Source: a virus. Taken from it: DNA of 26,610 nucleotides. The notes beneath the pieces are model-generated. The model ran no database searches and was not told where the DNA came from. It was given only the letters and a program-made list of their open reading frames with translations. A program made the translations under genes and the position numbers. Numbering within the stretch: position 1 is the first letter of the stretch; the number at the start of each line of letters is the position of its first letter. Shown in pieces: positions 1-26,465 of this stretch. The stretch lies in IMG/VR virus record IMGVR_UViG_3300048924_000080, positions 1-26,610 of that record; one strand, given 5' to 3'.

Positions 1-71
1 AAAACTGTAAACGGTGGCGTCAACGGCGCTGGTTTTGCCGCTTGCTCAAACCGCTAAGTGTTTGATTTATT
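1..71. other. Flanking DNA left of the prophage end
   Basis: This short stretch lies just beyond the 3' CCA end of the tRNA-Lys fragment and is probably host chromosome downstream of the original tRNA gene. No gene is visible. A TTGACG hexamer on the minus strand (18-23) resembles the phage promoter element, but it lacks the GCGG extension and its -10 position falls at the window edge. A weak inverted repeat (ggttt/aaacc) is present without a T-run, so I do not call a terminator. Confidence 0.4.
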
Positions 72-116
72 TGGTGGGCGCACCAGGGCTCGAACCTGGG
101 ACCCGCTGATTAAGAG
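72..116 (-). other. attL candidate: 3' fragment of tRNA-Lys(CTT)
   Basis: Read on the minus strand, this is the 3' half of a tRNA-Lys. It contains the anticodon loop CTCTTAA (116-110, anticodon CTT), the 3' strand of the anticodon stem, a perfect T-stem around TTCGAGC, the 3' acceptor strand TGCGCCC, discriminator A and an encoded CCA (74-72). The bases that should form the 5' anticodon stem (121-117) do not pair, so the tRNA identity stops exactly at the anticodon loop. This is the classic footprint of a tyrosine recombinase that integrates into a tRNA and leaves a 3' duplicate. The intact tRNA should sit at the other prophage end, outside the window. Confidence 0.8.
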
Positions 117-148
117 CTACGTCTTTTCACCTGTTCTCAATGACTTAG

Positions 149-1252: not shown

Positions 1253-2067
1253 GCGACGTGCTTTCGCACCCAGACCCTGACAGGCTCGGCGCCGAAGAAG
1301 CAGATGATGAACGTCACCAGGCAGACGGCCGAGAGGAAGATGAACGCGAGCAGCGCCGCCGCGATCTGCCAGTCGGTCAGCGCACCGAGGCCGCCGAACC
1401 CGATGCTGGAGCCCGCCGCAACGACCCAGTTGCGCGCGCGGCTGAAGAAGCCGGATGCCGAGGGCGCCGGCCCCGGAGGGCTGCCAGGCGGCCCCTGATC
1501 CTCGTGCCCAGCCTCTTGGGTGCTCTCCTGAACGTCGCTGTCTCCATCCGCCTGCACGTCACCGAGGAGGCCTACAGGGCGTGCCACGGGCTCACGCGAG
1601 CAGAACTCGAAGTGCATGGGATCGGTGCGACCCCGATAGTCGCCGCCCCACAGCGCGCCCTGGCGCTTGAACGCGTCGATCACGATCTGCGGCATGGTAC
1701 CATGGCCGGTGCCAAAACCGTTGTTCTCGGCATCGAAGTCGATCGCAGCCCCGTAAGCATGGTTCGACCAGCGCGTCGCCGAGCCACGGATCAGGCGATG
1801 GTTGTAGGCGCCCGAATAGTGCGAGATCCGCAAGCGGTCGATCTTGGCTTGGTCGCGGCCGCAACGCTCCCAGATCTCGTCGAGCGCCGCCTTCAATGCG
1901 CCGGCGGCCTTGCGGTGAAACTGGATCTGCCGCACCGGCTTGCCGTCGTAATACATCTGGAACGGCGGAACGACCGGGACGAGATACTTGCCGGGCTCGT
2001 CCTTCGCGGGATCACCATAGAACGCCGCGAGCGACGCCGGATCATCGTGAGGCCAGCGCGTCGACAT
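1249..2067 (-). CDS. M15-family peptidase endolysin with C-terminal membrane anchor
   Basis: A protein of 272 aa. The N-terminal 160 residues form an M15 (VanY/DD- or L-Ala-D-Glu-type) zinc peptidase domain. The core motif is SNHAYGAAIDFD, with zinc ligands H103 and D110, and the third ligand is H152 in DPMHFEF. A Pro/Gly/Asp-rich linker (about 165-205) leads to a strong membrane segment (about 233-259) and a short basic tail. It should cleave peptide cross-links or stems in peptidoglycan. No signal peptide is visible, so access depends on a holin or on the C-terminal anchor. It overlaps the RlpA-like gene by one base (TGATG). Which bond is cut cannot be decided from the sequence. Confidence 0.85.
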   Translation of the reverse strand: MSTRWPHDDPASLAAFYGDPAKDEPGKYLVPVVPPFQMYYDGKPVRQIQFHRKAAGALKAALDEIWERCGRDQAKIDRLRISHYSGAYNHRLIRGSATRWSNHAYGAAIDFDAENNGFGTGHGTMPQIVIDAFKRQGALWGGDYRGRTDPMHFEFCSREPVARPVGLLGDVQADGDSDVQESTQEAGHEDQGPPGSPPGPAPSASGFFSRARNWVVAAGSSIGFGGLGALTDWQIAAALLAFIFLSAVCLVTFIICFFGAEPVRVWVRKHVA

Positions 2068-2405
2068 CAGTCAATCCTTTCGATGGTGACGCGGCCGACG
2101 CCGGCATCGAGCATGCCGATCGCGCGCGCTGCGCCGAGTGAGAGATCGATGCTCCGCCCGGTCCATTTTGCCGGGCCGCGATCGTTGACGCGGCAGATCA
2201 CGTCCCGACCGCGATAGCTGACCCGGAGCTTCGTTCCGAACGCCATTGCGCGATGCGCGCAGGTCATGCCATGCGGGTTGAAGCGCTCGCCGCTCGCGGT
2301 CCGGGTGCCGCTTTCGAAGCCGTACCAAGACGCGAGAACAGCCTCCCCGGCACGGGCACGCACCGGGGAGACCAGGAGCAGACAAAGGAGGAGAACACGC
2401 ATCAT
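2067..2405 (-). CDS. RlpA-like secreted lytic transglycosylase
   Basis: A protein of 112 aa: a signal peptide (MMRVLLLCLLLVSPVRARA), then a single double-psi beta-barrel of the RlpA family. Visible motifs are ASWYG, TASGERF, TCAHR, FGTKLRV, VNDRGP and IDLS. Residues E40, H51 and D75 align by motif with those important in Pseudomonas RlpA. No SPOR domain is present, so it lacks the usual septal targeting and is much shorter than cellular RlpA. In the lysis cassette it probably acts as a secreted peptidoglycan-cleaving enzyme beside the M15 endolysin. It has no Shine-Dalgarno; the promoter element ends 7 nt before the first ATG, suggesting a leaderless message. ATG at 2402 is an alternative start. 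Confidence 0.85.
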   Translation of the reverse strand: MMRVLLLCLLLVSPVRARAGEAVLASWYGFESGTRTASGERFNPHGMTCAHRAMAFGTKLRVSYRGRDVICRVNDRGPAKWTGRSIDLSLGAARAIGMLDAGVGRVTIERID

Positions 2406-2412
2406 GGCCGCG

Positions 2413-2443
2413 ACAATGCGGCCAGAGGGTCTACGTCAACCGC
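2413..2443 (-). promoter_or_regulatory. Late promoter element P7 (lysis)
   Basis: On the minus strand: GCGGTTGACG, 15 bp, then CATTGT, followed 7 nt later by the RlpA-like ATG. The TGA inside TTGACG is also the stop codon of the preceding 163-aa gene. Its -10 is the weakest of the set at the first base, but the GCGGTTGAC block and spacing match the others exactly. Confidence 0.65.
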
Positions 2444-2927
2444 TCGTTGTATCCGAGGAGCCGGTCGACGCCTCGGTAGGGCTGTTGGTGATCTGCCCGA
2501 GCGCGGCCTCGATATCGTCGGCCACTTTGCGGATATCCGCACCGTGCGCGCGAAACTTGCCGATCGCAGCCTGGGCGCGATCGTGGGCCTCCTGGATCTC
2601 GTCGGCGACCTTGTCGGCCTCGGCATCCATGTTCTTGACGAGATCCTGCGTGAGAAACGCCAGGCGCTGCATGCCGCGCATCTTGGGAGGCCCTTCCTTG
2701 GGTGGGGTGAATTCCGCGATCGCCGCGGCCAGATGATCATCGAGATGCTTGCTGGCGGTGCCCGACCACACGGCCATGATTTCATCTGCGCTCGGCTCGC
2801 CACCGACCGCGTCGACGAAATAATCGCGTCCCTCGATCGACACCGGCCCGTAGCGCACGGCGCCGGGCTGCTGGTCGCTCGCCGGGAAGTTCGGCGGTTG
2901 ATTATAGACGCAGCAGATCCGGCTCAC
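2436..2927 (-). CDS. Hypothetical protein after tail fibre (possible fibre-associated protein)
   Basis: A protein of 163 aa that I do not recognise. The first 60 residues look folded (CCVYNQPP, VSIEGRDYFVDAVGGEPSADEIMAVW). Residues about 85-145 are predicted helix or coiled coil (LTQDLVKNMDAEADKVADEIQEAHDRAQ), and the tail is Ser/Thr-rich. It starts with GTG in a GTGA overlap with the fibre stop and is preceded by GGGAG at useful distance, so it is co-translated with the fibre. Position suggests a fibre assembly chaperone or accessory subunit, but nothing in the sequence proves it. Its stop codon is embedded in the lysis promoter. Confidence 0.8.
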   Translation of the reverse strand: MSRICCVYNQPPNFPASDQQPGAVRYGPVSIEGRDYFVDAVGGEPSADEIMAVWSGTASKHLDDHLAAAIAEFTPPKEGPPKMRGMQRLAFLTQDLVKNMDAEADKVADEIQEAHDRAQAAIGKFRAHGADIRKVADDIEAALGQITNSPTEASTGSSDTTSG

Positions 2928-4999
2928 GCCATCAGCTCCCGCGCTTCCATGAAGCTGTTCATCGCGCCGCCCATCAGCCGCGCGCTGCTCTGCCCGTTGA
3001 AAGTGATCGTCGCCGCAGCCGCAGGGCCAACGCGTAGCTTGAACGTCGTTTGAGCGATCGATGCGGCCAGGGCGGTATAGTCAAGATTACGCTGCTGGAT
3101 GACGTTTGCAGCAAAGAACTGGCCGCAGTTTGCCGTCACCGCGCTGGCCGCGCTGTCACGGAAGAGCGCCAACGTCGCGCCGGACCCGACCGAGTGCGCA
3201 ACGAACGCCGAGGCCGTCACCTTCAGCAGGTTCGCCGCCGACGTCGGTGTAATCGCGAGCGACATGTACTGATCACCCTCCGTATTCTGCGGAATGGTGT
3301 CGTCGAACGGCGTGATCGTCGTCCCCGTCGCCATCGCACCGGTGTCGGAGCGCTGCAGCTGGATGTCCTGCCCCGGCAGCGGGCTACCGGGTTCGAACAG
3401 CTGCGTGCGCGTCGGGCCCGCGGACCAGGTGCCTGCCGTGGCAAGACCGGTTTCCCAGCTCATATAGCCAAGAACCTGATAGGGCTTCGACGTCGGCGGC
3501 ACCGTCGTGTAGAACACCTGCGCGATGTTGCCCGTCACGGTCCCGGAAGCTATCGGAAACTGCCCGAGGGGATAGATGCTGTTGCCCGACAGGCAGTTGA
3601 TCACGCTCAGACGCAGGGTCCCTGCATCGTTGAACGCCACCAGCCAGATCCGGAATGGTGTGCCGTTCAGTGCGCCGAGCGTGCTTCCGACACCGATGAA
3701 GAGCGACGTCGCCGCGGTCAACGGCATCACCGTGAAGTCGCCGCTGCCCGCCGTCGCATTGCGGACGATGACATAGACCGGATCGGACGGCGACGGATCG
3801 TTGCCCGCAAGCGTCTTGATCGCGATCTGCAGCACGTTGCTCGAAACGCTCGGCACGATCGTGCCGTTGATCAGCGGCGAAGCCAGGTTGCGGATCTGGG
3901 CGGCGACGCCGCGACCCGGCAGCGGCACGGCCGCATGGTAGAGCTGCAGCGTCGTTGGCGATACCGACCAGGCGCCGGCGCTGGCAAGGCCAGCCGGATA
4001 GTCGGCAAACCCGAGCACCGCATAGGGCTTCGATGTCACCGCCGCGCCAGTGTAGAACGTCAGCGCGCTGTCGGCATTGCCGGCGCCACCTTCCGCCGTC
4101 GATGATGCCGGCTGGTCCGGCGTGAGCAGCAGCTGCGCCAGCAGCCCGTCAAGCGGGTTGATGATACCGAGGCGGAACGTGCCGGCATCGTTGAACCCGA
4201 CCAGCCACACCTTGAACGCCGCGCTGTTGGTGGTGCCAAGCGAGGATCCCGACGATACCGTGATCGAGGTGGCCGACGTCAGCGTCATCACTGTGTAGTC
4301 GCCGGTCGCAAGCGTGCCGTTGCGCACCAGCACCAGAACGGGATCGCCGGTCGAGGGATCATTGCCGGTGAGCGTCTTGATCGCGAACGTCACCGCGCCG
4401 CCGGTGTGGCTTTCGACGATCGTGCCGTTGATCATCGAGAACCCCTGCGACGACGCTGCAAGCGTCCGCGCGATCACTGCCTGTGCCGCCACGGCCGCGC
4501 CGGCCGTTTGCGCCACCATCTCCCAGCGGTTGAGGCTGCCGGAGGTGCGGTAGCGCAGCGTCGCGCTTGCTTTCGGCGTCATCACGATGTCGGCGCCGCC
4601 GAGGTCGAAACGGTTAGCCACGCTCGATGATGCGCTCTGATCCTTCAGCGTAAGGTTGAAGCTGCCACCGTTGTAGACCGTGAGCTCCCGCCCATCCGTT
4701 GCATCCGTCACGGTCGACGGCACGATGCCGGTCAGATCGCGCGCCGCATCGGTCGACATGACGAGCACACTGGCGTGCTTCATGCCCGCCGGATTGTAGT
4801 CGTTGGTGTTGGCGGAGATCTGCGCCGGCACCAGGATCTCGCGGATATGCTTCTTGGCGAGACGAATGCCGCCGGCGGTCGCACCGTCGCCGATATGCGG
4901 CTCCTTCTTCGTGGTGTCGAAGCCGAGCTCGGCCGGGAGCGGGGTGACGCCCTCGATTTCGGTGGTGGTACCGCGAATATGCTGGACCCGGGTGCTCAT
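2924..4999 (-). CDS. Tail fibre / receptor-binding protein with Mtd-like N-terminus and internal duplication
   Basis: A protein of 691 aa. Residues 5-50 (IRGTTTEIEG, AELGFDTTKKEPHIGDG) match the N-terminal knob motif of phage major tropism determinant and other fibres. Residues about 50-185 form a linker domain. Two homologous repeats follow, about 189-364 and 376-545, sharing INGTIV, IKTL.GNDPS, F..WLV.FNDAGT.RL..IN and TSKPY.VLG. The C-terminal domain (about 546-691) carries QNTEGDQYMSLAITPTSAAN, a type common in fibre tips. It overlaps the adaptor gene by ATGA. Its likely role is host-surface recognition from the tail. No reverse transcriptase or template repeat is present, so tropism switching is not indicated. 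Confidence 0.82.
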   Translation of the reverse strand: MSTRVQHIRGTTTEIEGVTPLPAELGFDTTKKEPHIGDGATAGGIRLAKKHIREILVPAQISANTNDYNPAGMKHASVLVMSTDAARDLTGIVPSTVTDATDGRELTVYNGGSFNLTLKDQSASSSVANRFDLGGADIVMTPKASATLRYRTSGSLNRWEMVAQTAGAAVAAQAVIARTLAASSQGFSMINGTIVESHTGGAVTFAIKTLTGNDPSTGDPVLVLVRNGTLATGDYTVMTLTSATSITVSSGSSLGTTNSAAFKVWLVGFNDAGTFRLGIINPLDGLLAQLLLTPDQPASSTAEGGAGNADSALTFYTGAAVTSKPYAVLGFADYPAGLASAGAWSVSPTTLQLYHAAVPLPGRGVAAQIRNLASPLINGTIVPSVSSNVLQIAIKTLAGNDPSPSDPVYVIVRNATAGSGDFTVMPLTAATSLFIGVGSTLGALNGTPFRIWLVAFNDAGTLRLSVINCLSGNSIYPLGQFPIASGTVTGNIAQVFYTTVPPTSKPYQVLGYMSWETGLATAGTWSAGPTRTQLFEPGSPLPGQDIQLQRSDTGAMATGTTITPFDDTIPQNTEGDQYMSLAITPTSAANLLKVTASAFVAHSVGSGATLALFRDSAASAVTANCGQFFAANVIQQRNLDYTALAASIAQTTFKLRVGPAAAATITFNGQSSARLMGGAMNSFMEARELMA
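3365..4435 (-). repeat. Internal tandem duplication in the tail fibre gene
   Basis: This region encodes two related blocks of about 170 residues: 3908-4435 (residues 189-364) and 3365-3874 (residues 376-545). Conserved anchors are spaced almost identically in both. The DNA has diverged well beyond recent duplication, which suggests an old event kept by selection on the protein. Confidence 0.8.
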
Positions 5000-5691
5000 A
5001 CGTATGTTCCGTAGTCGCGCGAGGTTGAGGTGACGTCGGTGTAGAATTGATAGTCGGGATTGCCGAGGATGGCGGCATAGGTCGAGGCCAAGCCCGCGGC
5101 GCCGGTGGCGATGCCGGCTTGCGTCGTCGCCGTCGCCGCGGCGCCGACCGCGATATCGCGCGCGGCTTCAGCGCCGGCCTGCGCGCTCGATCCCGACACC
5201 GTGTCGGCATAGGCTTTGGTGGCAAGGTCACTGTCGTCGATCGGCTCGGCCGCCCGCACCGTGCGCGGCCGGAAGTCGACGACGCCGATCGAGGCCGAGA
5301 ACGGTGTGACGGTTCGGTTCTGCCGGTTGCGCAGCTCGGCGTCGCGCATCGCATCCGCATCCGCGATCCGCTCGTGCACGGACGGGTCGAAGCGCGCGAG
5401 GTTGACGAAATCGACGCCCTGGGTCGCCGGCGTCACCCGCTCGATCGCGATCCTGACAGGCGCGTCGGCCGAGGCCGACGGAAACGCAATCCGCGTGACG
5501 GTCGCCGCGCCGCCAGCGTCGAGCGAGGCCGAATAATGCAGGCCGAAAGTCAGCGCGATCAGCAGCCCGCTGCCGTCGAAATACCCGACATGGACATGCT
5601 CCGCCGCCTGCGCCGAGAAGCCCGCCGGAAAGCTGCTCTCGGCCCCGGTGTAGAGGAATTCGGAATAGCTGGCTTCGGTTGCGACCGTCAT
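4996..5691 (-). CDS. Tail fibre adaptor, T7 gp17-like N-terminal domain
   Basis: A protein of 231 aa. Residues about 1-145 resemble the N-terminal domain of T7-type fibres that docks on the tail (YTGAESSFPAGF, EHVHVGYFDGSG, RIAIERVTP, NLARFDPSVHERIADADAMRDAELRNRQNRT). The motif IDDSDLATKAYAD resembles the linker seen in many fibres. An Ala-rich helix and a short Tyr-rich end follow. It probably links the following 691-aa fibre to the tail tube. The chosen start is ATG at 5691, because the promoter's -10 ends 7 nt before it; TTG at 5700 would lie inside the -10. No Shine-Dalgarno is present, so it should be leaderless. Confidence 0.82.
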   Translation of the reverse strand: MTVATEASYSEFLYTGAESSFPAGFSAQAAEHVHVGYFDGSGLLIALTFGLHYSASLDAGGAATVTRIAFPSASADAPVRIAIERVTPATQGVDFVNLARFDPSVHERIADADAMRDAELRNRQNRTVTPFSASIGVVDFRPRTVRAAEPIDDSDLATKAYADTVSGSSAQAGAEAARDIAVGAAATATTQAGIATGAAGLASTYAAILGNPDYQFYTDVTSTSRDYGTYV

Positions 5692-5698
5692 GGCGGGC

Positions 5699-5729
5699 AA
5701 GGTAGGCCGGTGTCGGCCGCGTCAACCGC
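5699..5729 (-). promoter_or_regulatory. Late promoter element P6 (tail fibre)
   Basis: On the minus strand: GCGGTTGACG, 15 bp, then TACCTT, with the fibre-adaptor ATG 7 nt further. There is no ribosome binding site between, so transcription would begin at or within a base or two of the ATG. Confidence 0.75.
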
Positions 5730-5897
5730 CAGCCCCTCCCTTGAAGGGGAGTGGACTAGGCCTAGACCCTGGCGAGCCCGTTCCCCTTTTGGGCGTTGTT
5801 CTTCACGGGCCAATGCATTGAGAACGGCGTCCGGACAGACTGGCAACATCTCCATGCGCTGCCTTGAAGGGAGTGGACGATGCGCCCTGAGGAAGCG
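5730..5897. other. Non-coding gap with imperfect direct repeat
   Basis: Between the SGNH gene and the fibre promoter, no supportable ORF is seen. An 18-nt element (ccttgaaggggagtggac, 5739-5756) recurs at 5862-5878 with one base missing. A 10-bp palindrome, ctaggcctag, lies at 5756-5765. The reading frame that ends in the promoter's TGA has no start codon. The gap may be scar tissue from module exchange. Confidence 0.5.
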
Positions 5898-7301
5898 CTA
5901 CGGCAATGGCCCGCTAGGCAACGGGCCTTCACTGACCTTTATCTGCTGCACCCATGCGGACCCACTAACTGGGGTCGTGGGAAAGTTCGGATACAAGTTG
6001 ATCGACGCGCTCGCCCCGAGCGCTGAGCCAATTTGAATTCCCGGAAGCACCGACAAGTACCAGTTGTCCGCAACAGGCTGTTGCGTGCTTCCTTGAATCC
6101 ACTGGATCGGTCCCGGGCTCGCCTGAGCCAGGTTGTCTACAATAAGAACGGAGTAAAACGGAATTGCTCCACCCGCTCCCGCAGCCGTCGTGCGAAATAG
6201 AACCCACACACTCACAAGTTTGTTGATAAGCGCGGCCTTCTCTACCGCATCAAACGAGTAACGCAGACTGCCGAATTGGCTCACACAGGGCATCTGCATC
6301 GAATACGGCGCGGCGCCGTACTTAACCGCAGCGTCCTTGATCGCGGTCTGGCTGTTGAACGCCGTCACATTGCGGGGGAAGGTCCCCGTCCAATCGGAGA
6401 AGTCGCCATTCGTGAGCAAATTCGTTCCGCTCTGCGCGGGCCAGCTCGTTGTCGAATATGCGCCGGGAGTGCTCAAATTGTACGCGCCCATGAGGCGGTT
6501 TGCTTGCAGCGCGCCCCCGTCGAAGTTTCCCGCCCCAGACGAGTCACTCGGATGCACGCCCGTCGGATCACTCCCAGCCGGACGGAAAAGTCGCGTAGCT
6601 TTCCCGAGAGCAATGAAGTCCTTATACGTGTCGACGAACCCCAGGGTGGGCATCACGCTTTTGACACCCAAGTACGCCCCGTACATATTGTTCATATTGG
6701 TATCGGCGCGATTGGGGTTCTGCGTCGTCATGATCTGCGGCACATCAGGCCATTGCAGCGAGAGCATACCGATTGCCGCAAGCAATAGACCACGCCCCGT
6801 CGGAAGATTGTCTCCAGTTGGGTTCACAGTCGCCGTCACGTTGAACGACGCAAAATTGTGACCTTGATGCAGGCGAATCAAGTCCGGCGTGCTCACACCA
6901 TCGAGCGCCGCCGCCTTGCGGCTCGTGTCCCACGCGAACGATGCCATCGAGCCCGGCAGAGCGCAAAGCCAGAGCGTAATGAGTGGGCCGGCCCCGTATA
7001 CTGTATCGACCGCCACATTGTACGACTTAGGACCGGTGGGCAAACCCGTTCCTGCATTCCATTCACCCCAGAGCCGTATACGCGCCGTTCCCGAATATTT
7101 TTGGGCCAGCGCCTGAACGAACAACTGGTCCGGTCCGAACGCCGAGTAATCCGTACTGTCACCAAGGGAGAAGATCGAAACCGGCTGGTTGGCCTCCAAT
7201 TTCTGCTTCAGCGGCCCCATCGCCGCTACCGCCTGGAACGGTGGCAGCCCCGCTGACCCAAGGGGATCGAACACAGGCCCTACGAGGCTGGGACCGAACA
7301 T
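5898..7301 (-). CDS. SGNH/GDSL-type hydrolase with C-terminal binding domain (virion esterase)
   Basis: A protein of 467 aa. SGNH motifs are visible in order: SLGDST (nucleophile S49), QGHN (G147, N149), and DPTGVHPS (D245, H250). After about residue 290 a beta-rich module opens with LLTNGDFSDWTGTFP, which resembles carbohydrate-binding domains in phage receptor proteins. The predicted role is removal of acyl groups from surface polysaccharide during adsorption. It is translated just after the spike-base-like gene (TGA-G-ATG), so it may be the spike fibre itself. The DNA is visibly more AT-rich than its neighbours and ends in a non-coding gap with repeats, suggesting recent acquisition. Confidence 0.82.
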   Translation of the reverse strand: MFGPSLVGPVFDPLGSAGLPPFQAVAAMGPLKQKLEANQPVSIFSLGDSTDYSAFGPDQLFVQALAQKYSGTARIRLWGEWNAGTGLPTGPKSYNVAVDTVYGAGPLITLWLCALPGSMASFAWDTSRKAAALDGVSTPDLIRLHQGHNFASFNVTATVNPTGDNLPTGRGLLLAAIGMLSLQWPDVPQIMTTQNPNRADTNMNNMYGAYLGVKSVMPTLGFVDTYKDFIALGKATRLFRPAGSDPTGVHPSDSSGAGNFDGGALQANRLMGAYNLSTPGAYSTTSWPAQSGTNLLTNGDFSDWTGTFPRNVTAFNSQTAIKDAAVKYGAAPYSMQMPCVSQFGSLRYSFDAVEKAALINKLVSVWVLFRTTAAGAGGAIPFYSVLIVDNLAQASPGPIQWIQGSTQQPVADNWYLSVLPGIQIGSALGASASINLYPNFPTTPVSGSAWVQQIKVSEGPLPSGPLP

Positions 7302-7302
7302 C

Positions 7303-7560
7303 TCAGCGCAGCGCGACGATCGTGGTCGCCGTCGTCCCTGTTTTGTAGATCTTCTTGACCTTGTGGCCGTGCGAAACGCCTGCGGCTAACGCTGGCAGGG
7401 TTACAGTTGAGCCGTCGACATAATCGACTTTGACGTCACCCGAGACACCCACGACAAAACCGCGGATGGCCTGGGACGGCACATAGTCCGTACTTGATAG
7501 ATCGACGGTCTCGCCGCCGGTCGCAGATGCGAGCGAAGCGATTTCACGTTCAACACCCAT
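7303..7560 (-). CDS. Head spike base-like small protein (RCAP_Rcc01079-like)
   Basis: A protein of 85 aa. The C-terminal half (FVVGVSGDVKVDYVDGSTVTLPALAAG, then VKKIYKTGTTATTIVAL) follows the pattern of a small phage family that includes the head-spike base of the Rhodobacter gene transfer agent. By that analogy it attaches the next gene product, the SGNH protein, to the virion. The start is ATG at 7560: AGGAG (7567-7571) sits 6 nt upstream. The in-frame ATG at 7566 directly abuts the AGGAG and is a poor choice. It is the first gene after a promoter element. Confidence 0.75.
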   Translation of the reverse strand: MGVEREIASLASATGGETVDLSSTDYVPSQAIRGFVVGVSGDVKVDYVDGSTVTLPALAAGVSHGHKVKKIYKTGTTATTIVALR

Positions 7561-7584
7561 GGCCATCTCCTGACAGGTGGCCCG

Positions 7585-7615
7585 ACCCTACGAGCGCCAG
7601 CCGCCCGTCAACCGC
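7585..7615 (-). promoter_or_regulatory. Late promoter element P5 (spike)
   Basis: On the minus strand: GCGGTTGACG, 15 bp, TAGGGTCGG. The ATG of the 85-aa gene is 24 nt after the -10 hexamer, with an AGGAG ribosome site between. The TGA in TTGACG is the stop codon of the 809-aa gene. Confidence 0.78.
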
Positions 7616-10037
7616 CGCCGAACGCCGCCCCGAGGTTCGGCGCGCGCGCCGGCGCCGTCTCGCCCTGCCCCCACCAATAGCCCTGCCCGTACTCCTTCTG
7701 CGCGCGCTGGGCGCGCCTGGCGAAGGACTGCGAATAGGTCGGGTCGATCGCCCGGTGCAGCTGGTCGAAGATCAGCCGGTCTGTCGCGAGCCGGGAGAAC
7801 CACAGGTTTGATCCCGGGGTGAGATGCTTGACGAGCTCGATGCCCTGCCCGATCGCGCCGGGCTGGCCCTTGACGGCGGCGGCGCCGAACCGGCCGGCAT
7901 CGTCGATGAAGCCGCCGATCGGACCTGAAAACTTGCCGATGACGCTGCGGTCGGCCGCCTGCGACACGCCGCCGACCAGATCGCCGAAATAGCCGGCGCC
8001 GCCGCCCTGGATCGCTGCCTGCCCCCAGAATTTCGGATGGTGCATGTCGATGGGATCGCGGCCCGACAGTATCTGGCGGGCCTGGATGATGCCGGCGCCG
8101 GCCAGCAGATGCAGGCCGTAGAACAGCGCGTTGTTCATGGCCTTGTTGCCGGCGACGCCGTCCTTGATCGCGAGCGCCGTCATGTGGGTGGCGATCATCG
8201 TCATCGAGAACGATTGGAACATCGTCGCGGTGCGCGCCACTTCGCCCATGAAGGTGCCGGCCTGGGCGCCCTGCGTGGTGACGTTGCGGATCCGCGCGTC
8301 GGGCTCCAGCACGGCCAGCGCCCGCTCCTGCAGCACGCCCTCGTACAGCTTGCGCACGGTCTCGTCGGATGCGGCCTTTGAGCTGTCGAAGAACTTGGCG
8401 CCACGGAAATCGAACTGCGGCAGCGACCGCAACTTGTCCCATTCGGCCGCCGTGATGCCGTAGCGCTTCAGGAAACTCTGCAGCGGCCCATCGAGATCGC
8501 CAAGCGCCCGGTCCGAGTTGCGGGCGATGTAGCCCAGCATCTCCATTGTGAACGCCTTCTTGATGCCCTCGGTCCATGCGTTGAGGCCGGAGGCGCGGAT
8601 CACGAAGTCGGACGTTTTCTTGATCAGCTCCGGCGTAAACATCTGGTCGGCATAACGGAAGGTCGAAACCGCGTGGTCGCTCATGGCATGCCCGGTCACC
8701 AGCAGCCGCGCGGCGTCCTCCTGCATCTTGGGATTTTCGGCGAAGATGGTCTCGATCGCGCGGGACAACACCTTGCCGCCGTCCATGCCATTGTAGCGCG
8801 CGGCCAGCAGCGCCGTGATGCTGTCGCCGATCGAGGCCGACACCGTCGCAGAGCCCAGCGATGAGGCCGCCATCAGCGAGCGCGCCGAGCCGAGCACGCC
8901 GCCCCACATCGCGTTTTCGACGCCATTGGCACGCCCGGACAGCACGGAATAGGTGCGGTCGATCGCGCCGCCGCTCTCCATCCCCATCATGCGGGCTGCC
9001 CGCAGCCGTGCCGAACCTGGCCGGCCCAGCTTCTCCCAGGCGCGCGCATTCTTCGCCAGCATCGCCACGGTCACCGCGTGCTGCGGACCGAGCACGTCGA
9101 CCAGCGCGCTTTCGCGGGCCATGGCGCCGAGGTGGCCGGTCAGGGTCGAGAAGATGTCCGAGCCCGAGCCGTACTTCTCCTGCAGTGTCATGAAGGCGTT
9201 GAGACCGTCGCGGCCGTCCTGAAATTGGAACGTGCGCATTTCCTTGGAGAACGCCGGCGCCGCACCCGCCTCGGTGATGATGTCGCGTGCGGCCTTGTCG
9301 ATCAGCGCCGAGATCCGCGCGGGATTGGTCGCGAGCTCGAGGCGCTCCTTGTCGAAGATCTTGAGCCCGCCGGTCGCGATCGCGTTGGAGAGGTCGCGGC
9401 GGAATTCGTCACCCATCCCGAAACGGCGGACGCGGTCCGCCGACCAGAACTGTGGCAGGCGCCAGTTTTCGGCCTCCTCGAATATCTTGCCGGCAGACTG
9501 GACGAACTTGACGCCCCACTCGGTCGCGTCCTTCCAGCCCGCGGCGGCAGCCTTGGCAACCGCATCACCGCTGTCGACGTTGAACAGCTCGGCGATCAGG
9601 TTGCGGGCGCCAGCCGTGTTCTGCTTCAGGCCCGCCATTTGCGACTTGTAGGCCTCGAAGCCGGCATTGAACTTGGAGAACAGGATCTCGCGCAGCGTCT
9701 GCGCCCGCGTGTCGACGTTCTGCGTTCCCGTCCGGTAGATGTCGCGCGTCAGCACCGCCATGCCGCCGGCGGCCGGCCCCCACGGGTGCGCCTGGGCGAT
9801 CTGCTCGGCCGAGGTTTGGCGCTGCACCTGCAGCGCCACCGCATTCTTTTGCTGCCGCGACGTCGCCATCATCTGCCGCGCCGCCTGCAGCGCGGCCGCG
9901 GCATCGGCCTTTGCGGCCGGCATGTCGAGCGAAAACTTGTTTTGGTAACGCCGCCACAGCGCATCGGCGGCATCGGCCTGCGCGCGTGTGATCTTGCCCG
10001 TCTTCTGCAGTTTTGTGAGGCAATCCTTGACGCTCAT
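7608..10037 (-). CDS. Large internal virion / DNA-ejection protein
   Basis: A protein of 809 aa. Long helical stretches alternate with Gly/Ala-rich hydrophobic segments (about residues 375-425, 595-665 and 690-735). The C-terminus has the arrangement LTPGSNLWFSRLATDRLIFDQLHRAIDP, then a basic Arg-rich stretch and GYWWGQGE, which is recurrent in large internal virion proteins of podoviruses. It ends in GGG. It probably rides in the capsid and is injected to build a channel for genome entry, the role of T7 gp16. The start is ATG at 10037, overlapping the previous stop by ATGA; the frame extends upstream, but only through the preceding gene. Confidence 0.75.
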   Translation of the reverse strand: MSVKDCLTKLQKTGKITRAQADAADALWRRYQNKFSLDMPAAKADAAAALQAARQMMATSRQQKNAVALQVQRQTSAEQIAQAHPWGPAAGGMAVLTRDIYRTGTQNVDTRAQTLREILFSKFNAGFEAYKSQMAGLKQNTAGARNLIAELFNVDSGDAVAKAAAAGWKDATEWGVKFVQSAGKIFEEAENWRLPQFWSADRVRRFGMGDEFRRDLSNAIATGGLKIFDKERLELATNPARISALIDKAARDIITEAGAAPAFSKEMRTFQFQDGRDGLNAFMTLQEKYGSGSDIFSTLTGHLGAMARESALVDVLGPQHAVTVAMLAKNARAWEKLGRPGSARLRAARMMGMESGGAIDRTYSVLSGRANGVENAMWGGVLGSARSLMAASSLGSATVSASIGDSITALLAARYNGMDGGKVLSRAIETIFAENPKMQEDAARLLVTGHAMSDHAVSTFRYADQMFTPELIKKTSDFVIRASGLNAWTEGIKKAFTMEMLGYIARNSDRALGDLDGPLQSFLKRYGITAAEWDKLRSLPQFDFRGAKFFDSSKAASDETVRKLYEGVLQERALAVLEPDARIRNVTTQGAQAGTFMGEVARTATMFQSFSMTMIATHMTALAIKDGVAGNKAMNNALFYGLHLLAGAGIIQARQILSGRDPIDMHHPKFWGQAAIQGGGAGYFGDLVGGVSQAADRSVIGKFSGPIGGFIDDAGRFGAAAVKGQPGAIGQGIELVKHLTPGSNLWFSRLATDRLIFDQLHRAIDPTYSQSFARRAQRAQKEYGQGYWWGQGETAPARAPNLGAAFGGG

Positions 10038-10288
10038 GTTTGACCTTTCAACGCGGGATCGTGGCCCCACACGATCGAACAGCCGCGGCTCTCGATCGCC
10101 TGCGCCAGCCCCTCGGCACGCGCGACGCAATTCCGACCGCTGTTGCGGGCGCAACGCACCACACCGGACATTTTGCCTTCAACAAAGACCGGGCTGCAAA
10201 AGCCGTTGGTCAGATCGGTCGAACAGAGATGCTCGGCCATGGCGCCGATCGCGCGCCGCCGATGCTTTTTCTTCAGATCTTCGCTCAC
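10034..10288 (-). CDS. Hypothetical Cys-rich small protein
   Basis: A protein of 84 aa, not recognised. It has a basic N-terminus (KKKHRRR) and five Cys (residues 22, 31, 46, 54 and 70), many for a phage cytoplasmic protein and suggestive of metal binding or disulfides. It starts at GTG in a GTGA overlap with the 541-aa gene and ends in an ATGA overlap with the 809-aa gene, so it is tightly coupled to two ejection proteins. Confidence 0.72.
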   Translation of the reverse strand: MSEDLKKKHRRRAIGAMAEHLCSTDLTNGFCSPVFVEGKMSGVVRCARNSGRNCVARAEGLAQAIESRGCSIVWGHDPALKGQT

Positions 10289-11910
10289 TCTGCGGCCTCC
10301 AGACCGATGATGCAGGCCTCAAGCTCCTTGCCGGCTCGCTCGAATTCGTCGAGCTCCTTGACGACGTCCGAGAGCTTTTGCGTGTTGAACGCATAGGTGC
10401 CGTCGGGCAGCCGGGTTTGCGTGGTGAACTCGGCTTCCGGATTGGCGGTGAGGATGTGGTCGAGATCGTGCACGGCGGCATCGAACGTCTTGGGATCGGC
10501 CTCAAGGGCCGAGATTTGCGCCGGCGCCAGATCGGGCGCCGAGACAGCGCGGGCCTCTATGGCGTCCTGGACCGCGTAGGCCTCCTTGCGGGTCAAGAAC
10601 CGGCCGTCTGTCGTCACGAAGCCGTCGAGGCCGACATTGTCGCGCCCTTCGAGCTGGGCCAGAAACTCCTCCGGAGAGATCTTCATATCCTTGGCGGCAC
10701 GATCGAGCGCGTGAGTGTGGTTCTCGCCGCGGTAGATCTTGTCGCCAATCTTGATCGCAGCGCCGTCGATCTTTTCGCCCGGGTCAAGGACGACCAACGG
10801 TTCATCCGTTGCACCCAGCGCCGCCCGTTCCTCCGGCGACGCCGACGCGAGCCGACTTTCCCAATAGCTGGCCGCATCATCGGTCTCGCCCGGCATCCGC
10901 TCGAAGCGCTCGACGTCGGGCACCTGGTCGAAGGTCTCCGGCCGCAGATGCTTCTCGCCGGCCAGGGCGAGATCCTCGGGCGTTTGCGACTTGGCAGCTA
11001 ACGCATAATCAGCCACATGCTCCGGCGGAAAGCTGTCACCCGACCGGACCGGCTCGCCACGCACCGCCGACCTGGTCGCGTCGATCGTCGCATCGCGCGC
11101 GGCTGCCTCGCCTGCCGCGGTCGGGAACGGGTTGGTCAGGTTCAGCTGCGCTTCCGAGGTGGCCGCGTTAACCTCATCGCGCACGGTCACCGGCAGCGCC
11201 CGCGCACCCGTGCCCATCAGCTTCTGCAGGCCGCCGAGGCCGGCGCCGAAGACCCCGCCGAACAGCGCGGCCGAGGCAAGCTCGCCCGGGACTTCCTTCA
11301 TCAGCGAGCCCGGCACGGCCCGCTCGCGCGACGGGCCGCCGGCGCCGGCAATCACCGCCTCGGTGCCGCCGCCGATCAGCGCGAATTCCAGCGCCCTCAG
11401 TGCAATGCCGGCCTGGCCGGCGCCGCCGAGCGGCAGCGTCGCGATCGCGACCGGATCGGAGACGCCAGCGGCAAGCGTACCCGTGATGGTGCCGAGCGTG
11501 CCGCCCCATGTGGTCTCCCGGCGCGCAAAGGCCGCCTGATCGTCATGGGCGCGCCGCATGCGCGTCAGCGCCATGGTGTCGATGTCGTTCTCCGACAGCG
11601 GCCGATAGCTCTGCTCCGGCTGGTTCGGATCCTGCGGCAGTTTGGTGATGGCGTCGTTGAGCTCGTCGAGCGTCACGTTGCCGCCCATGCCGTAGAGCGG
11701 CAGCTGCACGCCGGTCTTGGCCTTGACGTCGTCATAGAGCGTCGCCAACGCATGATCGCGGGCGTTCGAATAGTTGACCGAGGAATTCCATTCGGTCATG
11801 GCCCGGGTCGAGACGTCGAAGGCTTCCGAGAAGTCGGCCGGGATCTCGCGCGCCAGATTGGTTTGTGCGTTCTGCAGCGCCGGCAACGGGTCGAACAGGT
11901 CGAGGCTCAT
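10285..11910 (-). CDS. Internal virion protein candidate with hydrophobic Gly/Ala core
   Basis: A protein of 541 aa. The N-terminal 130 residues are charged and helical. Residues about 133-235 are Gly/Ala-rich and hydrophobic (GTLGTITGTLAAG, GGAGQAGIALRALEFALIGGG, LFGGVFGAGLGGL), resembling membrane-inserting segments of ejected phage proteins. The remainder is acidic and soluble. Position, between the transglycosylase and the 809-aa protein, fits the T7 gp15/gp16 slot. I do not recognise a named family. Its ATG (11910) lies 6 nt after a promoter -10 hexamer and has no ribosome site, predicting a leaderless start. Confidence 0.75.
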   Translation of the reverse strand: MSLDLFDPLPALQNAQTNLAREIPADFSEAFDVSTRAMTEWNSSVNYSNARDHALATLYDDVKAKTGVQLPLYGMGGNVTLDELNDAITKLPQDPNQPEQSYRPLSENDIDTMALTRMRRAHDDQAAFARRETTWGGTLGTITGTLAAGVSDPVAIATLPLGGAGQAGIALRALEFALIGGGTEAVIAGAGGPSRERAVPGSLMKEVPGELASAALFGGVFGAGLGGLQKLMGTGARALPVTVRDEVNAATSEAQLNLTNPFPTAAGEAAARDATIDATRSAVRGEPVRSGDSFPPEHVADYALAAKSQTPEDLALAGEKHLRPETFDQVPDVERFERMPGETDDAASYWESRLASASPEERAALGATDEPLVVLDPGEKIDGAAIKIGDKIYRGENHTHALDRAAKDMKISPEEFLAQLEGRDNVGLDGFVTTDGRFLTRKEAYAVQDAIEARAVSAPDLAPAQISALEADPKTFDAAVHDLDHILTANPEAEFTTQTRLPDGTYAFNTQKLSDVVKELDEFERAGKELEACIIGLEAAE

Positions 11911-11916
11911 CGTGCG

Positions 11917-11947
11917 AGCCTACGAAGATGCCGGCAGGGTCAACCGC
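11917..11947 (-). promoter_or_regulatory. Late promoter element P4 (ejection proteins)
   Basis: On the minus strand: GCGGTTGACC, 15 bp, TAGGCTCG, with ATG of the 541-aa gene 6 nt after the -10 hexamer. The TGA within TTGACC is the stop of a 39-aa membrane peptide gene. Confidence 0.75.
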
Positions 11948-12059
11948 CGAAGCTGATCAATCCCGGCCAGATCCTCGACACCAGCCAGACCACTATGCCG
12001 ACGCAGGCCCAAATGCCCATCATCAGCAGCACGGCGCGCGGGTCCCGGAACAGCATCAT
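11940..12059 (-). CDS. Small single-span membrane protein (39 aa)
   Basis: A 39-aa peptide beginning MMLFRDPRAV, with a hydrophobic span (about residues 9-28, VLLMMGIWACVGIVVWLV) and ending ISFGG. Codon third positions are almost all G or C, as in the neighbouring genes. The competing frame, which overlaps the transglycosylase stop through ATGA (12078), has many third-position A/T codons and looks like a shadow. It sits 15 nt after the transglycosylase stop, and its own stop lies in a promoter element. The function is unknown; possibilities are a holin-like peptide or a membrane helper for ejection. The ribosome site is weak. Confidence 0.6.
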   Translation of the reverse strand: MMLFRDPRAVLLMMGIWACVGIVVWLVSRIWPGLISFGG

Positions 12060-12074
12060 GCCGCAGCATACCAC

Positions 12075-14780
12075 TCATGGCAGAGCCCCGGATAGCGCGA
12101 ATGGATCGACCGACGCCACCGGGGCCGGCTGCCGCCCGCGGAGATCCAGCACAAAGGGCTTGCCGTCGGTTGTCGCCGCATATTGCGGGTTGCCATCGTC
12201 ACGGTTGACCTGGACGATGTAGCGGCCGTCGGCGACCGCCTGCAGCTTGGCGCTCGACTTCAGGAATGCCGCATCGATCGCCTTTCCCGACGTCGTCTGC
12301 GCGCCCTTCAGGTCCGCGTCTGTGATGCTCCACATCACGCCATCGAACTGCGCCTGGCTCATCCCGCGCGCCGGCGCGATCACGGGCGAGCCGTTGTGCG
12401 TCAGCACGCCGCCGGTCACGTCCGTCACCGCTTGCTGCAACCGCGAACTGCTGAGGTTGCCGCTGCTGTCCTTGGCCTGCGCCGACAGGAAGGCATAACG
12501 CGCGTCGATCGCGTCCTGCATGGACGCATACGACCCGCGCGGATCAGTGCGCGAGGCGACGTTGAAGGCTGCGGCAGGCAGATAGGTGGCGCGCGAGGTG
12601 TCGTAGGTCTGCCGGTTCGTCCCGGCCGGCACATACTTCTCGTCCGTCTTCTGGGCGTCGATGCCCTGCAGGATGGAGCCGGCGACCTCCGGCGCCTGAC
12701 CGTAGAGACCGGCCGCCATCGTGATCGCCGGCCGGTCGTTCTTCGCGCTCGTCCCGGACACCACCTGCGGCAGCGCGGCTGCGAAGGTCGACGGCGAAAG
12801 CCCCTTGGCAAGCTGGCCGAGGAGCGCCGCACGATCGGCCGGAGGCGCGTCGGTATATCGCTGATGCCAGCCCTCCGCTTCCTGCACCGTGAACGGCGAG
12901 CCGGAGCCGCCATAGACGCGATGCGCAATCTGCGCCTGGGCGTCGCGGTTCCGCAGCGAGGACACCAAGGTATCATCGAGCGCGCCATTCGGGTCGATGG
13001 GCTGCAAGGCGTAATAGCGGCCGCCATCGGCGCCGCCGAGCGTCACCGGCTCGCTGTCGCGCCGCTTGACCTGGTCGTCGCGCACCGCCTTGAAGGCCTT
13101 GAGCATGTTGACGCCGGTCTGTGTCGCGCTCGCCCCAGGCGAGGACAGATCCGCCTCCATTTGCTTGATCCCGGCATCGAGCAGCGCCGGCGGCGTCGAC
13201 CAGGCCTGCCGGATGAACGGCTGCGCCTTCTCGGCATAGTCGAGATCACGCAGCCGGCCGGCGGCAGCGGCATCGCCTTTCATCGCGGAGGCGGTCTGGG
13301 TCGCCCGATAGCTTGCGATCCGCTGCGGGTCGACCTCGAAACCGGCTTTGACCAAGCTGGGGATCGGATCACTGGTATCGACGGCGGCCGCCTGCGTCGT
13401 CAGCAGATGCTTCTCGCGTGCATCCTGCTGTTGCAACACGGCGCCGACAGCTGCGGTTGCCTGCAGCGTCGCCGAGGGCGAGGAGAATTGCACGTCCATC
13501 GGCGCGTTGAAACGCGCGTAGAGCTTGCCGAGATAGTCCCGGGTTTCCTTGATGTCGACGATCGAGGCAAGCTGCCCCGGCGAGAACCCGGCGCCGAACT
13601 TCGTTTCCGCCTGCGCCTTCCACGCGTCGGCACGGCCGGGACCGGCATTGTAGGCTGCGGCCGCCAGCGTCACGTTGCCGTCATAGCGGGTGACCATCTG
13701 TTGCCAGTAGGCGCGGCCGAGCTGCAGGTTCAGCGGCTGATCCGACAGCAACCGCTTTTTCAGCTCGTCATCGGACAGCGCAGCGACGTCCTTGAGGCCC
13801 AATGCGGTTGCGACGTCGCGCGCCGTCCCCGGCAGGATCTGCGAGGTTCCCAGCGCGCCCTTGGGCGACACGGCCGAATTGTCGCCGCCGCTCTCGATCG
13901 ACACGATGCCGTTGTCGAAGATCTTTTGCGCGTGATCCGGCGCAACGACGCGGCCGATCGAGAGCGTTGCCGCCTCCGGATGGAACGCCGCCGCGTTCAC
14001 GATCGCGGCCTGCGAATTGCCGTCGAGCCTGCCTTGCGCCGCGACCTTCAGGCTTTCCCGCCGCACGGGGTCCAGCGTGGCAAAAACGCCGGGCGTATCG
14101 AGGGCCTTGATCGCCTGGGCCGGATTACTTTGAACCAACCCCATCGCGTCGGCCTGGTCGAGCTGGCCGGAGAACGACTTGAAGCGCCCGACAGCCGTCT
14201 GGCTGTCGATCCAGCCGGCATCATGCAGCCGCTTCAAATCGGCGCTGTAGCGATCGATTGCGGCCGCCCGTGCCTCGGGGGATGGCGCCGTTGCCGCCTC
14301 CGTTAGAGACGACATGCCCAACGTGTCGTTGGCGGCGACGTTGATGTCTTTTTGCCGCCCGAACTGCGCAGTGCGAACCTCGTTCGTCGCCGTGAGCGAC
14401 GATCGCGTCATCTCCAGCGAGGCCTTGGCCCGCAGCGACGGATCGGAAATGTTGGCGAGATTGTCGAGCTGCGCCTTGTTGAGATCGTCCCGCGCTTTCT
14501 CCTCGGCATTCTCGTAGTCGGGATCCTTGGTGTATTTATCCTTGATCTCGTCGCGCGCGACCAGGAAGCCTTCCATCCCCTGCGACACGGCGGTCTGCTG
14601 CTGGCCATGCTGCAGCTTGGTGTTGACCGCAGCGAGCTCGGCCCCGAAGGAGCCGACCGCTTTGCTGATGGCCGATGTATCCGGCGCCACCGGGATCGAC
14701 GGCGCCTGCACTCCACGCAAGCCAGGCGTAGGCCCGCTGCCGAGCTGCTCGCGCATCTGATATTCGGGAGGCCCTGCCAT
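12075..14780 (-). CDS. Internal virion lytic transglycosylase (SLT domain)
   Basis: A protein of 901 aa. A helical N-terminal region (1-285) precedes a soluble lytic transglycosylase domain (about 288-425): catalytic Glu296 in SIESGG, then SPKGALGTSQILPGTA, LGRAYW, and AAAAYNAGPG with ETRDYLGKLY. A long helical C-terminal half follows. Large structural proteins with an embedded SLT domain are known in podoviruses, where they open the peptidoglycan locally during genome entry (T7 gp16 carries such a domain). Here the enzyme is separate from the 809-aa ejection protein. It starts 12 nt after the gp14-like gene with GAGG upstream. Confidence 0.88.
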   Translation of the reverse strand: MAGPPEYQMREQLGSGPTPGLRGVQAPSIPVAPDTSAISKAVGSFGAELAAVNTKLQHGQQQTAVSQGMEGFLVARDEIKDKYTKDPDYENAEEKARDDLNKAQLDNLANISDPSLRAKASLEMTRSSLTATNEVRTAQFGRQKDINVAANDTLGMSSLTEAATAPSPEARAAAIDRYSADLKRLHDAGWIDSQTAVGRFKSFSGQLDQADAMGLVQSNPAQAIKALDTPGVFATLDPVRRESLKVAAQGRLDGNSQAAIVNAAAFHPEAATLSIGRVVAPDHAQKIFDNGIVSIESGGDNSAVSPKGALGTSQILPGTARDVATALGLKDVAALSDDELKKRLLSDQPLNLQLGRAYWQQMVTRYDGNVTLAAAAYNAGPGRADAWKAQAETKFGAGFSPGQLASIVDIKETRDYLGKLYARFNAPMDVQFSSPSATLQATAAVGAVLQQQDAREKHLLTTQAAAVDTSDPIPSLVKAGFEVDPQRIASYRATQTASAMKGDAAAAGRLRDLDYAEKAQPFIRQAWSTPPALLDAGIKQMEADLSSPGASATQTGVNMLKAFKAVRDDQVKRRDSEPVTLGGADGGRYYALQPIDPNGALDDTLVSSLRNRDAQAQIAHRVYGGSGSPFTVQEAEGWHQRYTDAPPADRAALLGQLAKGLSPSTFAAALPQVVSGTSAKNDRPAITMAAGLYGQAPEVAGSILQGIDAQKTDEKYVPAGTNRQTYDTSRATYLPAAAFNVASRTDPRGSYASMQDAIDARYAFLSAQAKDSSGNLSSSRLQQAVTDVTGGVLTHNGSPVIAPARGMSQAQFDGVMWSITDADLKGAQTTSGKAIDAAFLKSSAKLQAVADGRYIVQVNRDDGNPQYAATTDGKPFVLDLRGRQPAPVASVDPFALSGALP

Positions 14781-19834: not shown

Positions 19835-20089
19835 GGGACGACCTCCTGTCGAAGCAGAGGAAAAGTTTCGGGTTGCTTCGTCAGGGTGCGGCTCCGGATC
19901 GGGAGCGGGCCTGGCTATCGTTTAACGCCCGCGATCGGCGGAGCGGCTTTCGCTCAGGTCAGGCGGGCCCCGCATGGCTCAGGTAAGCGAAGCGGGGGTG
20001 CGGCCGAACCCAGAAATGGGGCCGCTTGCGAACAAGCGGCCCAAGTCTAGGGAGGAAACGCCCCAACTAGGGACAACTCAACGAGCGCG
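19835..20089 (-). promoter_or_regulatory. Long structured leader of the capsid gene
   Basis: This stretch of 255 nt between the promoter element and the capsid GTG has no convincing coding frame. It contains a perfect 10-bp hairpin with a TTCG loop (20019-20042), a CTAGGGA direct repeat at 20047-20053 and 20067-20073, a gctcaggt direct repeat, and a weaker GCTTTCGCT/AGCGAAGC pair. It ends in AGGAGG. A mRNA-stability or translational-control role is inferred. No known riboswitch was recognised. Confidence 0.5.
20019..20042 (-). other. Perfect hairpin with TTCG loop in capsid leader
   Basis: On the minus strand: GGGCCGCTTG, TTCG, CAAGCGGCCC. The 10-bp stem has no mismatch. The bases after it (CATTTCTGGG) lack a T-run, so it is more likely a stability or regulatory element than a terminator. 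Confidence 0.6.
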
Positions 20090-20120
20090 AACATAGGTCG
20101 GCGGCGAGGGCGTCAACCGC
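20090..20120 (-). promoter_or_regulatory. Late promoter element P3 (capsid)
   Basis: On the minus strand: GCGGTTGACG, 15 bp, TATGTTCG. It begins a few bases after the stop of the 176-aa gene and drives the long capsid leader. TATGTT is among the closest of the set to the TATAAT consensus. Confidence 0.78.
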
Positions 20121-23918: not shown

Positions 23919-23949
23919 ACCCTACGGGCGAGCCATCGGCGTCAACCGC
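23919..23949 (-). promoter_or_regulatory. Late promoter element P2 (portal module)
   Basis: On the minus strand: GCGGTTGACG, 15 bp, TAGGGTCGG, in the 66-bp gap between the large terminase stop and the 98-aa gene. The ATG lies 30 nt after the -10 hexamer. Its -10 and flank are identical to P5. Confidence 0.78.
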
Positions 23950-25895: not shown

Positions 25896-26465
25896 CTAGT
25901 CGTCACCGTGCGACACGTCACCGTGCGACACGTTCTGCTCCGGTGCGCTAAGCGCTTGATTTTCCTGTGTTTGTTCAATGTACATCCAAGGCGGCCGAAC
26001 CGAGCCATCCGAGCCCAGCGCCGGCGCAGACTGCCCTGGAAACACCATCGTCAACCGAGGTGCGACCGCGTTGCCGCTGGCATCGACCTGGCCGAGCTGG
26101 GCGTAGAAGTACCGCGCGAGCTCGCTCCACATGCGATCGAGGCGATCGAACGCCTCCAGCTTGGTGCAGCCGAGCTCGATCGCGAGCGTCTCAGGCGTGT
26201 GCATCGCATAGCGAAAACGCCGCTCCAGCGGATCTCCGCAGAGTTTCCGCACGAATTCGAGCATCTCGCGCGTCGCCTTATTCTGTGCGCCTGGCGGACG
26301 GCCGCGCCGATCGGCCTTGATCGCGGTCTCGACGCGCTCGACCTGGCTGTCGGTAAGGCTCGGCCGCATCGCCGGCATGAGCTCGAGCTGCTCGATGGCC
26401 GCGGGCGCCGGCGCCGCCGCCGCAATCACCTCCGCGATCGCGGCCTTCTGTGCCTTCTTCGCCAT
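25896..26465 (-). CDS. Terminase small subunit (putative)
   Basis: A protein of 189 aa. An Ala-rich N-terminus and a linker precede ADRRGRPPGAQNKATREMLEFVRKLCGDPLERRF, whose GRP.G..NK pattern is common in small terminase subunits, then helical segments (ELGCTKLEAFDRLDRMWSELARYFYAQLG). The C-terminus is a duplicated short motif (VSHGD). The position directly upstream of the large subunit supports the call. It should bind the packaging site and load the large subunit. The start is ATG at 26465, with GAGG 13 nt upstream and promoter P1 about 30 nt upstream. Confidence 0.75.
   Translation of the reverse strand: MAKKAQKAAIAEVIAAAAPAPAAIEQLELMPAMRPSLTDSQVERVETAIKADRRGRPPGAQNKATREMLEFVRKLCGDPLERRFRYAMHTPETLAIELGCTKLEAFDRLDRMWSELARYFYAQLGQVDASGNAVAPRLTMVFPGQSAPALGSDGSVRPPWMYIEQTQENQALSAPEQNVSHGDVSHGDD
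25901..25930. repeat. Perfect tandem 15-bp duplication in small terminase 3' end
   Basis: The 15-mer cgtcaccgtgcgaca occurs twice back to back (25901-25915, 25916-25930). In frame it encodes VSHGD twice at the C-terminus. Recent slippage is likely, because the copies are identical. Confidence 0.9.

Follow-up and report, generated by a model that had tools for sequence, protein, structure and literature searches.

How does a phage translate genes whose start codons lie 6 or 7 nt behind a promoter -10 hexamer, with no Shine-Dalgarno (SD) sequence between the two? This question arises at three modules of the window, the whole stretch of 26,610 bases analyzed here, which is an entire IMG/VR record with a G+C content of about 65%. 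The window carries minus-strand genes for portal, capsid, virion proteins, fibre, and RlpA-like and M15 enzymes, and a first-pass annotation had predicted leaderless mRNAs at the gene for an internal virion protein, the gene for a fibre adaptor and the lysis module.

Three start codons abut a -10 hexamer

The three promoters and the genes behind them are as follows.

11917..11946, minus strand: promoter P4, CGGTTGACC-N15-TAGGCT, 6 nt before ATG 11910 of the 541-aa virion protein gene (boxes GTTGAC 11944-11939 and TAGGCT 11922-11917)
10285..11910, minus strand: gene for the 541-aa internal virion protein (phrog_342), predicted leaderless start at ATG 11910
5699..5728, minus strand: promoter P6, CGGTTGACG-N15-TACCTT, 7 nt before ATG 5691 of the fibre adaptor gene (boxes GTTGAC 5726-5721 and TACCTT 5704-5699)
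4996..5691, minus strand: gene for the 231-aa fibre adaptor (phrog_5510, matched from residue 1), predicted leaderless
2413..2442, minus strand: promoter P7, CGGTTGACG-N15-CATTGT, 7 nt before ATG 2405 of the lysis module (boxes GTTGAC 2440-2435 and CATTGT 2418-2413; the -10 is CANNNT rather than TANNNT)
2067..2405, minus strand: gene for a 112-aa RlpA-like enzyme (Pfam DPBB_1, E 3.7e-20), predicted leaderless

Direct reading of the sequence, together with pairing energies, confirmed the annotated arrangement of -10 hexamers 6, 7 and 7 nt ahead of ATGs 11910, 5691 and 2405 with SD sequences absent. Upstream of these starts the 16S tail is predicted to pair at -2.6, -1.7 and -1.5 kcal/mol, whereas the other window starts have a median of -6.0 kcal/mol. 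The accepted sign of bacterial leaderless genes is a TANNNT about 12 nt before the start (PMC3160421). The first T lies 12 nt before the start at P4 and 13 nt at P6, the CANNNT of P7 at 13 nt is a partial match, and all three starts share the lack of an SD that goes with such genes.

The short-gap promoters belong to a rigid phage promoter family

P4, P6 and P7 are members of a promoter family, CGGTTGACG-N15-YANNNT, with seven sites at fixed spacing in the window. The pattern GTTGAC-N16-YANNNT occurs at seven sites on the gene strand and none on the antisense strand, where 0.04 per strand would be expected from dinucleotide-based random sequence, and an ATG at a gap of 6-7 nt behind three of the seven has a p of about 8e-4 from ATG density alone. 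These counts bear out the earlier judgement that chance was unlikely; the sites form a phage-specific promoter array for which chance is ruled out. The remaining members are listed here.

26029..26058, minus strand: motif copy in the small-terminase reading frame, CGGTTGACG-N15-CAGTCT, a candidate promoter
23919..23948, minus strand: promoter P2, CGGTTGACG-N15-TAGGGT, 30 nt before ATG 23888 of the 98-aa gene after the large terminase
20090..20119, minus strand: promoter P3, CGGTTGACG-N15-TATGTT, upstream of a suhB-type sRNA, with the capsid start GTG 19834 a further 255 nt on
7585..7614, minus strand: promoter P5, CGGTTGACG-N15-TAGGGT, 24 nt before ATG 7560, with AGGAG in the leader, a led control within the promoter family

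The copy in the small-terminase frame is kept in G001, G002 and G393 (genomes defined below), but was not counted as a promoter because a conserved peptide could explain its conservation.

The promoter family is also present in four related phages or prophages, which were found through an 848-aa protein and through the capsid leader; three of the four reside in bacterial genomes belonging to the Rhodopseudomonas family. These are L016/G001 (92% in the 848-aa protein relative to the window), L017/G002 with its viral record L006 (Rhodopseudomonas sp. AAP120; 75%), G255 (76%) and G393 (IMG/VR 3300047571). The motif is absent from G211, G151, G153 and G167, which reach about 40% or less in the 848-aa protein, so promoter conservation is not traceable beyond the closer relatives; among phage records the window has no near DNA match. 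L016/G001 is titled Frankia sp. RB7, a name that looks wrong for a genome holding three suhB sRNAs, an alphaproteobacterial family, along with the prophage. At the left end of the window, positions 62-140 (minus strand) resemble a tRNA gene reduced to its 3' half (GGTTCGAGCCCTGGTGCGCCCACCA), such as is found where prophages attach; no complete tRNA was detected there by ARAGORN.

Across the window and three relatives, 21 sites have a spacing of 16, one has 15 and none has 14 or 17-20, with the reservation that orthologous promoter sites are not fully independent. The TTGAC box that served as the seed of the search extends to CGGTTGACG in nearly all 21 sites, with the C kept in 20, the G in 21 and the final G in 20. 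The -10 reads TANNNT in 12 of the 21 and CANNNT in nine, its three inner positions carrying little information. In each of the five phages the lysis promoter carries CANNNT and, provided that the usual rules apply, would be weaker for it. The window and its 92% relative share an identical -35 box in all five orthologous pairs, while only 8-12 of the 15 spacer bases are kept. The 7.4-Mb genome G001 has nine copies of the GG-prefixed spacing-16 form, of which seven lie in the prophage contig, and G002 has five, all on its prophage contig; the remaining matches in both genomes have spacing 15 or 17. A generic E. coli sigma-70 scan missed these sites because the inter-hexamer spacer is 15 and the -10 is degenerate. 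Judged by their conservation, the view that these elements act like real promoters is supported.

The short gap is conserved at the fibre and lysis modules

The distance from -10 to start codon is itself conserved. At the fibre gene the gap is 7, 7, 7 and 7 nt in the window, G001, G255 and G393, and 19 nt with a GGAG SD in G002. Compared with the window, fibre protein identity is 57% in G001 and 50% in G255, so the 7-nt distance has outlasted much sequence change. At the lysis module the gap is 7 nt before RlpA in the window, 6 nt before RlpA in G001 and 7 nt before an M15 peptidase in G255, and thus the short gap persists although the first gene differs; it is 20 nt in G002 and 25 nt in G393, each time before another gene. 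Homology supports the ATGs as true starts: the 541-aa and fibre proteins have homologues that align from residue 1, as in G001 for the 541-aa protein, and the fibre adaptor start aligns in four relatives. The RlpA start at ATG 2405 is kept in G001 and is directly followed by a signal-peptide-like stretch.

Other members of the family precede leaders of ordinary length. The accessory gene behind the 848-aa gene has gaps of 24, 24 and 23 nt with an SD in the window (P5), G001 and G393, the last with AGGAGG, and the gaps for the gene behind the large terminase are 30, 29, 31 and 28 nt. Overall the gaps are bimodal, being either 6-7 nt or 19 nt and more, with none between 8 and 18. All eight short-gap starts are ATG without an SD, and pairing is weaker at the seven short-gap starts for which it was measured than at other starts (p = 3e-4, with orthologues not independent).

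The G+C content drops around the 467-aa tail gene at 5898-7301 (minus strand), to 0.588 at 6001-7000, and tblastn gave no counterpart of this gene in the relatives; it appears to be a recent acquisition, made along with P5 or placed behind it. Between the tail gene and P6, at 5729-5883, the sequences CCTTGAAGGG and GGGAGTGGAC form imperfect direct repeats spaced by about 122 nt. Accessory genes at this repeat site vary among the relatives, and G255 and G002 have no genes inserted there.

An inserted cassette carries the promoter of the 541-aa gene

The history of P4 is different. In G001, G002 and G255 the homologues of the 541-aa gene begin inside the stop codon of the preceding gene (GTGA/ATGA overlap) and have no promoter of the CGGTTGACG-N15-YANNNT family. 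In the window, about 165 nt holding P4 and a small reading frame separate the preceding gene from the 541-aa gene and end exactly at its ATG.

11938..12056, minus strand: orf38, a 38-aa hydrophobic peptide within the P4-carrying cassette, its TGA stop overlapping the -35 box

By tblastn, orf38 has no homologue in the relatives, and the 541-aa protein has no relatives in viral_contigs or phage records. The cassette in the window and the overlap in the relatives indicate that the leaderless start of the 541-aa gene was gained by insertion and is not conserved. The three cases that the first-pass annotation had treated as independent instances of one geometry do share that geometry, but they are unequal, the 541-aa case being private to the window. 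Comparing the -10 to ATG distance in relatives, the check it had proposed, likewise gave a split result: the distance is kept at the fibre gene (four of five phages) and the lysis module (three phages), and not at the 541-aa gene.

These distances bear on the alternative that the promoters are real while translation proceeds mainly from longer read-through mRNAs, independently of an SD or by reinitiation, the short gap then reflecting compact packing. We regard this as unlikely. The modules share one direction, which makes read-through itself likely, the upstream stops lie 27-31 nt from two of the starts, and the 541-aa gene is expressed without a promoter of its own in the relatives. Set against these points, the gaps fall into two separate classes and the 7-nt gap is kept over deep divergence; a read-through mRNA would offer no SD either, and the gene preceding the fibre gene ends about 200 nt upstream. 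Transcripts reading through from promoters further up would nevertheless include these genes and may add to their expression.

A suhB-type sRNA suggests where transcription starts

An sRNA in the capsid gene leader gives an estimate of where transcription begins. Directly behind P3, at 20005-20081 (minus strand), the covariance model of suhB/mmgR (RF00519) detects a homologue scoring 48.5 bits against a curated cut-off of 41, with a terminator-like hairpin whose T run is poor. In two related hosts the chromosome holds 2-3 suhB copies, and the leader in the G001 prophage holds a similar, weaker version. Counted from the -10 of P3, the suhB model begins 8 nt downstream, and in three host suhB copies a TAGCGC box can be made out by eye 5-7 nt upstream of the aligned start. 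This calibration, which comes from homology rather than measurement, agrees with a transcription start about 6-9 nt behind the -10, that is, at or beside the short-gap ATGs.

The same calibration leaves some room for transcription to begin 2-5 nt up- or downstream of the ATG, giving a tiny leader or a start within the codon and a near-leaderless message. The suhB model start falls one or two nt beyond the ATG position, and start-site choice generally varies by a few nt. We nevertheless consider such an offset quite improbable, as each of the eight short-gap sites has a purine, the A of its ATG, at position 7 or 8, and a start past this A would destroy the gene.

Alphaproteobacterial housekeeping promoters of the Caulobacter consensus accommodate TTGACG with a TANNNT at such a distance, and an N15 spacing after TTGACG, short for E. 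coli, lies within the Caulobacter range. That the motif is instead a recombination or module-border sequence and no promoter, an idea suggested by its place at module borders, its unusually invariant -35-like part, its fixed spacing and the near confinement of spacing-16 copies to prophages, has a negligible chance of being right given this fit to housekeeping promoters, the reading of all copies along the genes and the position of P3 exactly where an sRNA promoter is expected.

The capsid leader contains a second conserved element at about 19870-19975 (minus strand), GCCGA..GC.GGCG..AAACGATAG.C.GGCCCG, which is common to the window, G001 and G002 and is also present in five further viral contigs. 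It has no Rfam match, and its single sequence folds only slightly better than shuffles.

Leaderless geometry is enriched in the host family

Pattern counts in 41 genomes of the family of G001 place the phage arrangement in a host context. TTGAC-N16-19-TANNNT followed by an ATG at 6-7 nt occurs 189 times against 65 in the reversed control, compared with 77 against 59 at a gap of 12-13 nt and 115 against 67 at 26-27 nt. The excess peaks at the leaderless distance and is nearly gone at the distance that suits neither leaderless initiation nor an SD. In Bradyrhizobium japonicum, dRNA-seq located 320 gene starts no more than 10 nt from the start codon, of which 192 coincide with it exactly. The same study described TTG-N-TATA and GCTATA motifs (PMC4842269), in keeping with the fit of the phage element to housekeeping promoters.

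A proposed late promoter set with leaderless and led genes

On the sequence evidence, leaderless initiation is the best reading of the three starts. We infer that the promoter family is a late promoter set of temperate podoviruses and that genes of the P4, P6 and P7 type are probably made as leaderless mRNAs. The initial prediction gains from the conserved promoters, from a geometry that four of the five phages share at the fibre gene and three at the lysis module, and from the enrichment in the host family; it is narrowed by the G002 fibre promoter, whose 19-nt leader with an SD indicates that leaderlessness is not required. We propose that temperate podoviruses of soil bacteria in the Rhodopseudomonas/Bradyrhizobium family would use the rigid set CGGTTGACG-N15-YANNNT late in infection. 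In front of the fibre gene and the lysis module, and of the 541-aa gene in the window phage only, the promoter would be positioned for RNA polymerase to begin at the first base of the ATG; a ribosome with its initiator tRNA would then bind the leaderless mRNA directly, without an SD. At other modules the same promoter would give an mRNA leader of 19-31 nt, or of 200-300 nt for the capsid gene. The polymerase probably uses host RpoD. As the first-pass annotation suggested, leaderless translation might give these genes an advantage late in infection or keep their level below that of the capsid gene.

Recognition by a dedicated phage factor would likewise be compatible with the fixed spacing, the degenerate -10 and the nine bases that hardly vary. 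Such a factor might read CGGTTGACG-N15-YANNNT and switch on a dispersed late regulon with leaderless fibre and lysis genes and led capsid and accessory genes, so that the two groups could be translated differently as ribosomes and initiation factors change during infection; we put this forward tentatively, as a possibility that we doubt. No sigma factor or RNA polymerase was recognized among the G001 early genes. A conserved 232-aa early protein was considered as a late activator and rejected, as it bears a closer resemblance to a replication initiator whose gene contains repeats; its HTH match is weak. This 232-272-aa protein, encoded at L088 (G001:C4) 11704-12402 (minus strand) with homologues in L132 and L133, has HTH-like ends and repeats that differ between phages (TPGELST three times, GIHSST four times, DLST twice), a layout that we liken to a lambda O-type replication initiator with iterons inside its gene.

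With one gene behind one promoter predicted to be leaderless in four sister phages and SD-led in the fifth, these phages offer a natural comparison for the role of leaderless translation in alphaproteobacterial viruses. The promoter set also provides a simple sequence handle to locate late modules in a poorly known prophage group.

Comparison with known leaderless genes and promoters

The window sites resemble TA-led genes (PMC3160421) and the -10-adjacent ORFs of Deinococcus-Thermus (PMC12340547) in having TANNNT about 12 nt upstream of an ATG and no SD. They differ in always having a strong, invariant -35 box at fixed spacing and in being part of a single phage promoter set, other members of which drive led genes. 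The leaderless mRNAs of B. japonicum (PMC4842269) come from the same bacterial family, in which leaderless starts are common, and share an RpoD-like motif; they represent host genes with varied promoters, and the published leaderless motif contains TGnTA, not the CGGTTGACG box. For lambda cI (lambda is named in PMC3160421) and Thermus phage phiYS40 (cited in PMC4842269), as these papers mention them, a promoter likewise abuts a phage start codon, whereas those phages are unrelated and, in the present group, a gene predicted to be leaderless in some sister phages is led in another. Alphaproteobacterial RpoD promoters share the TTGACG-like -35 and may also agree in the -10, TATAAT-like or GCTATA-like in those promoters and TANNNT here, and in a permitted distance between the boxes. 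The phage set differs from host promoters in keeping to a single spacing value and in having nine bases that are invariant, and in 9 of 21 sites a C replaces the first -10 T. Compared with these systems, the leaderless start is of a known but unusual kind, and the rigid phage-specific promoter set is the newer part.
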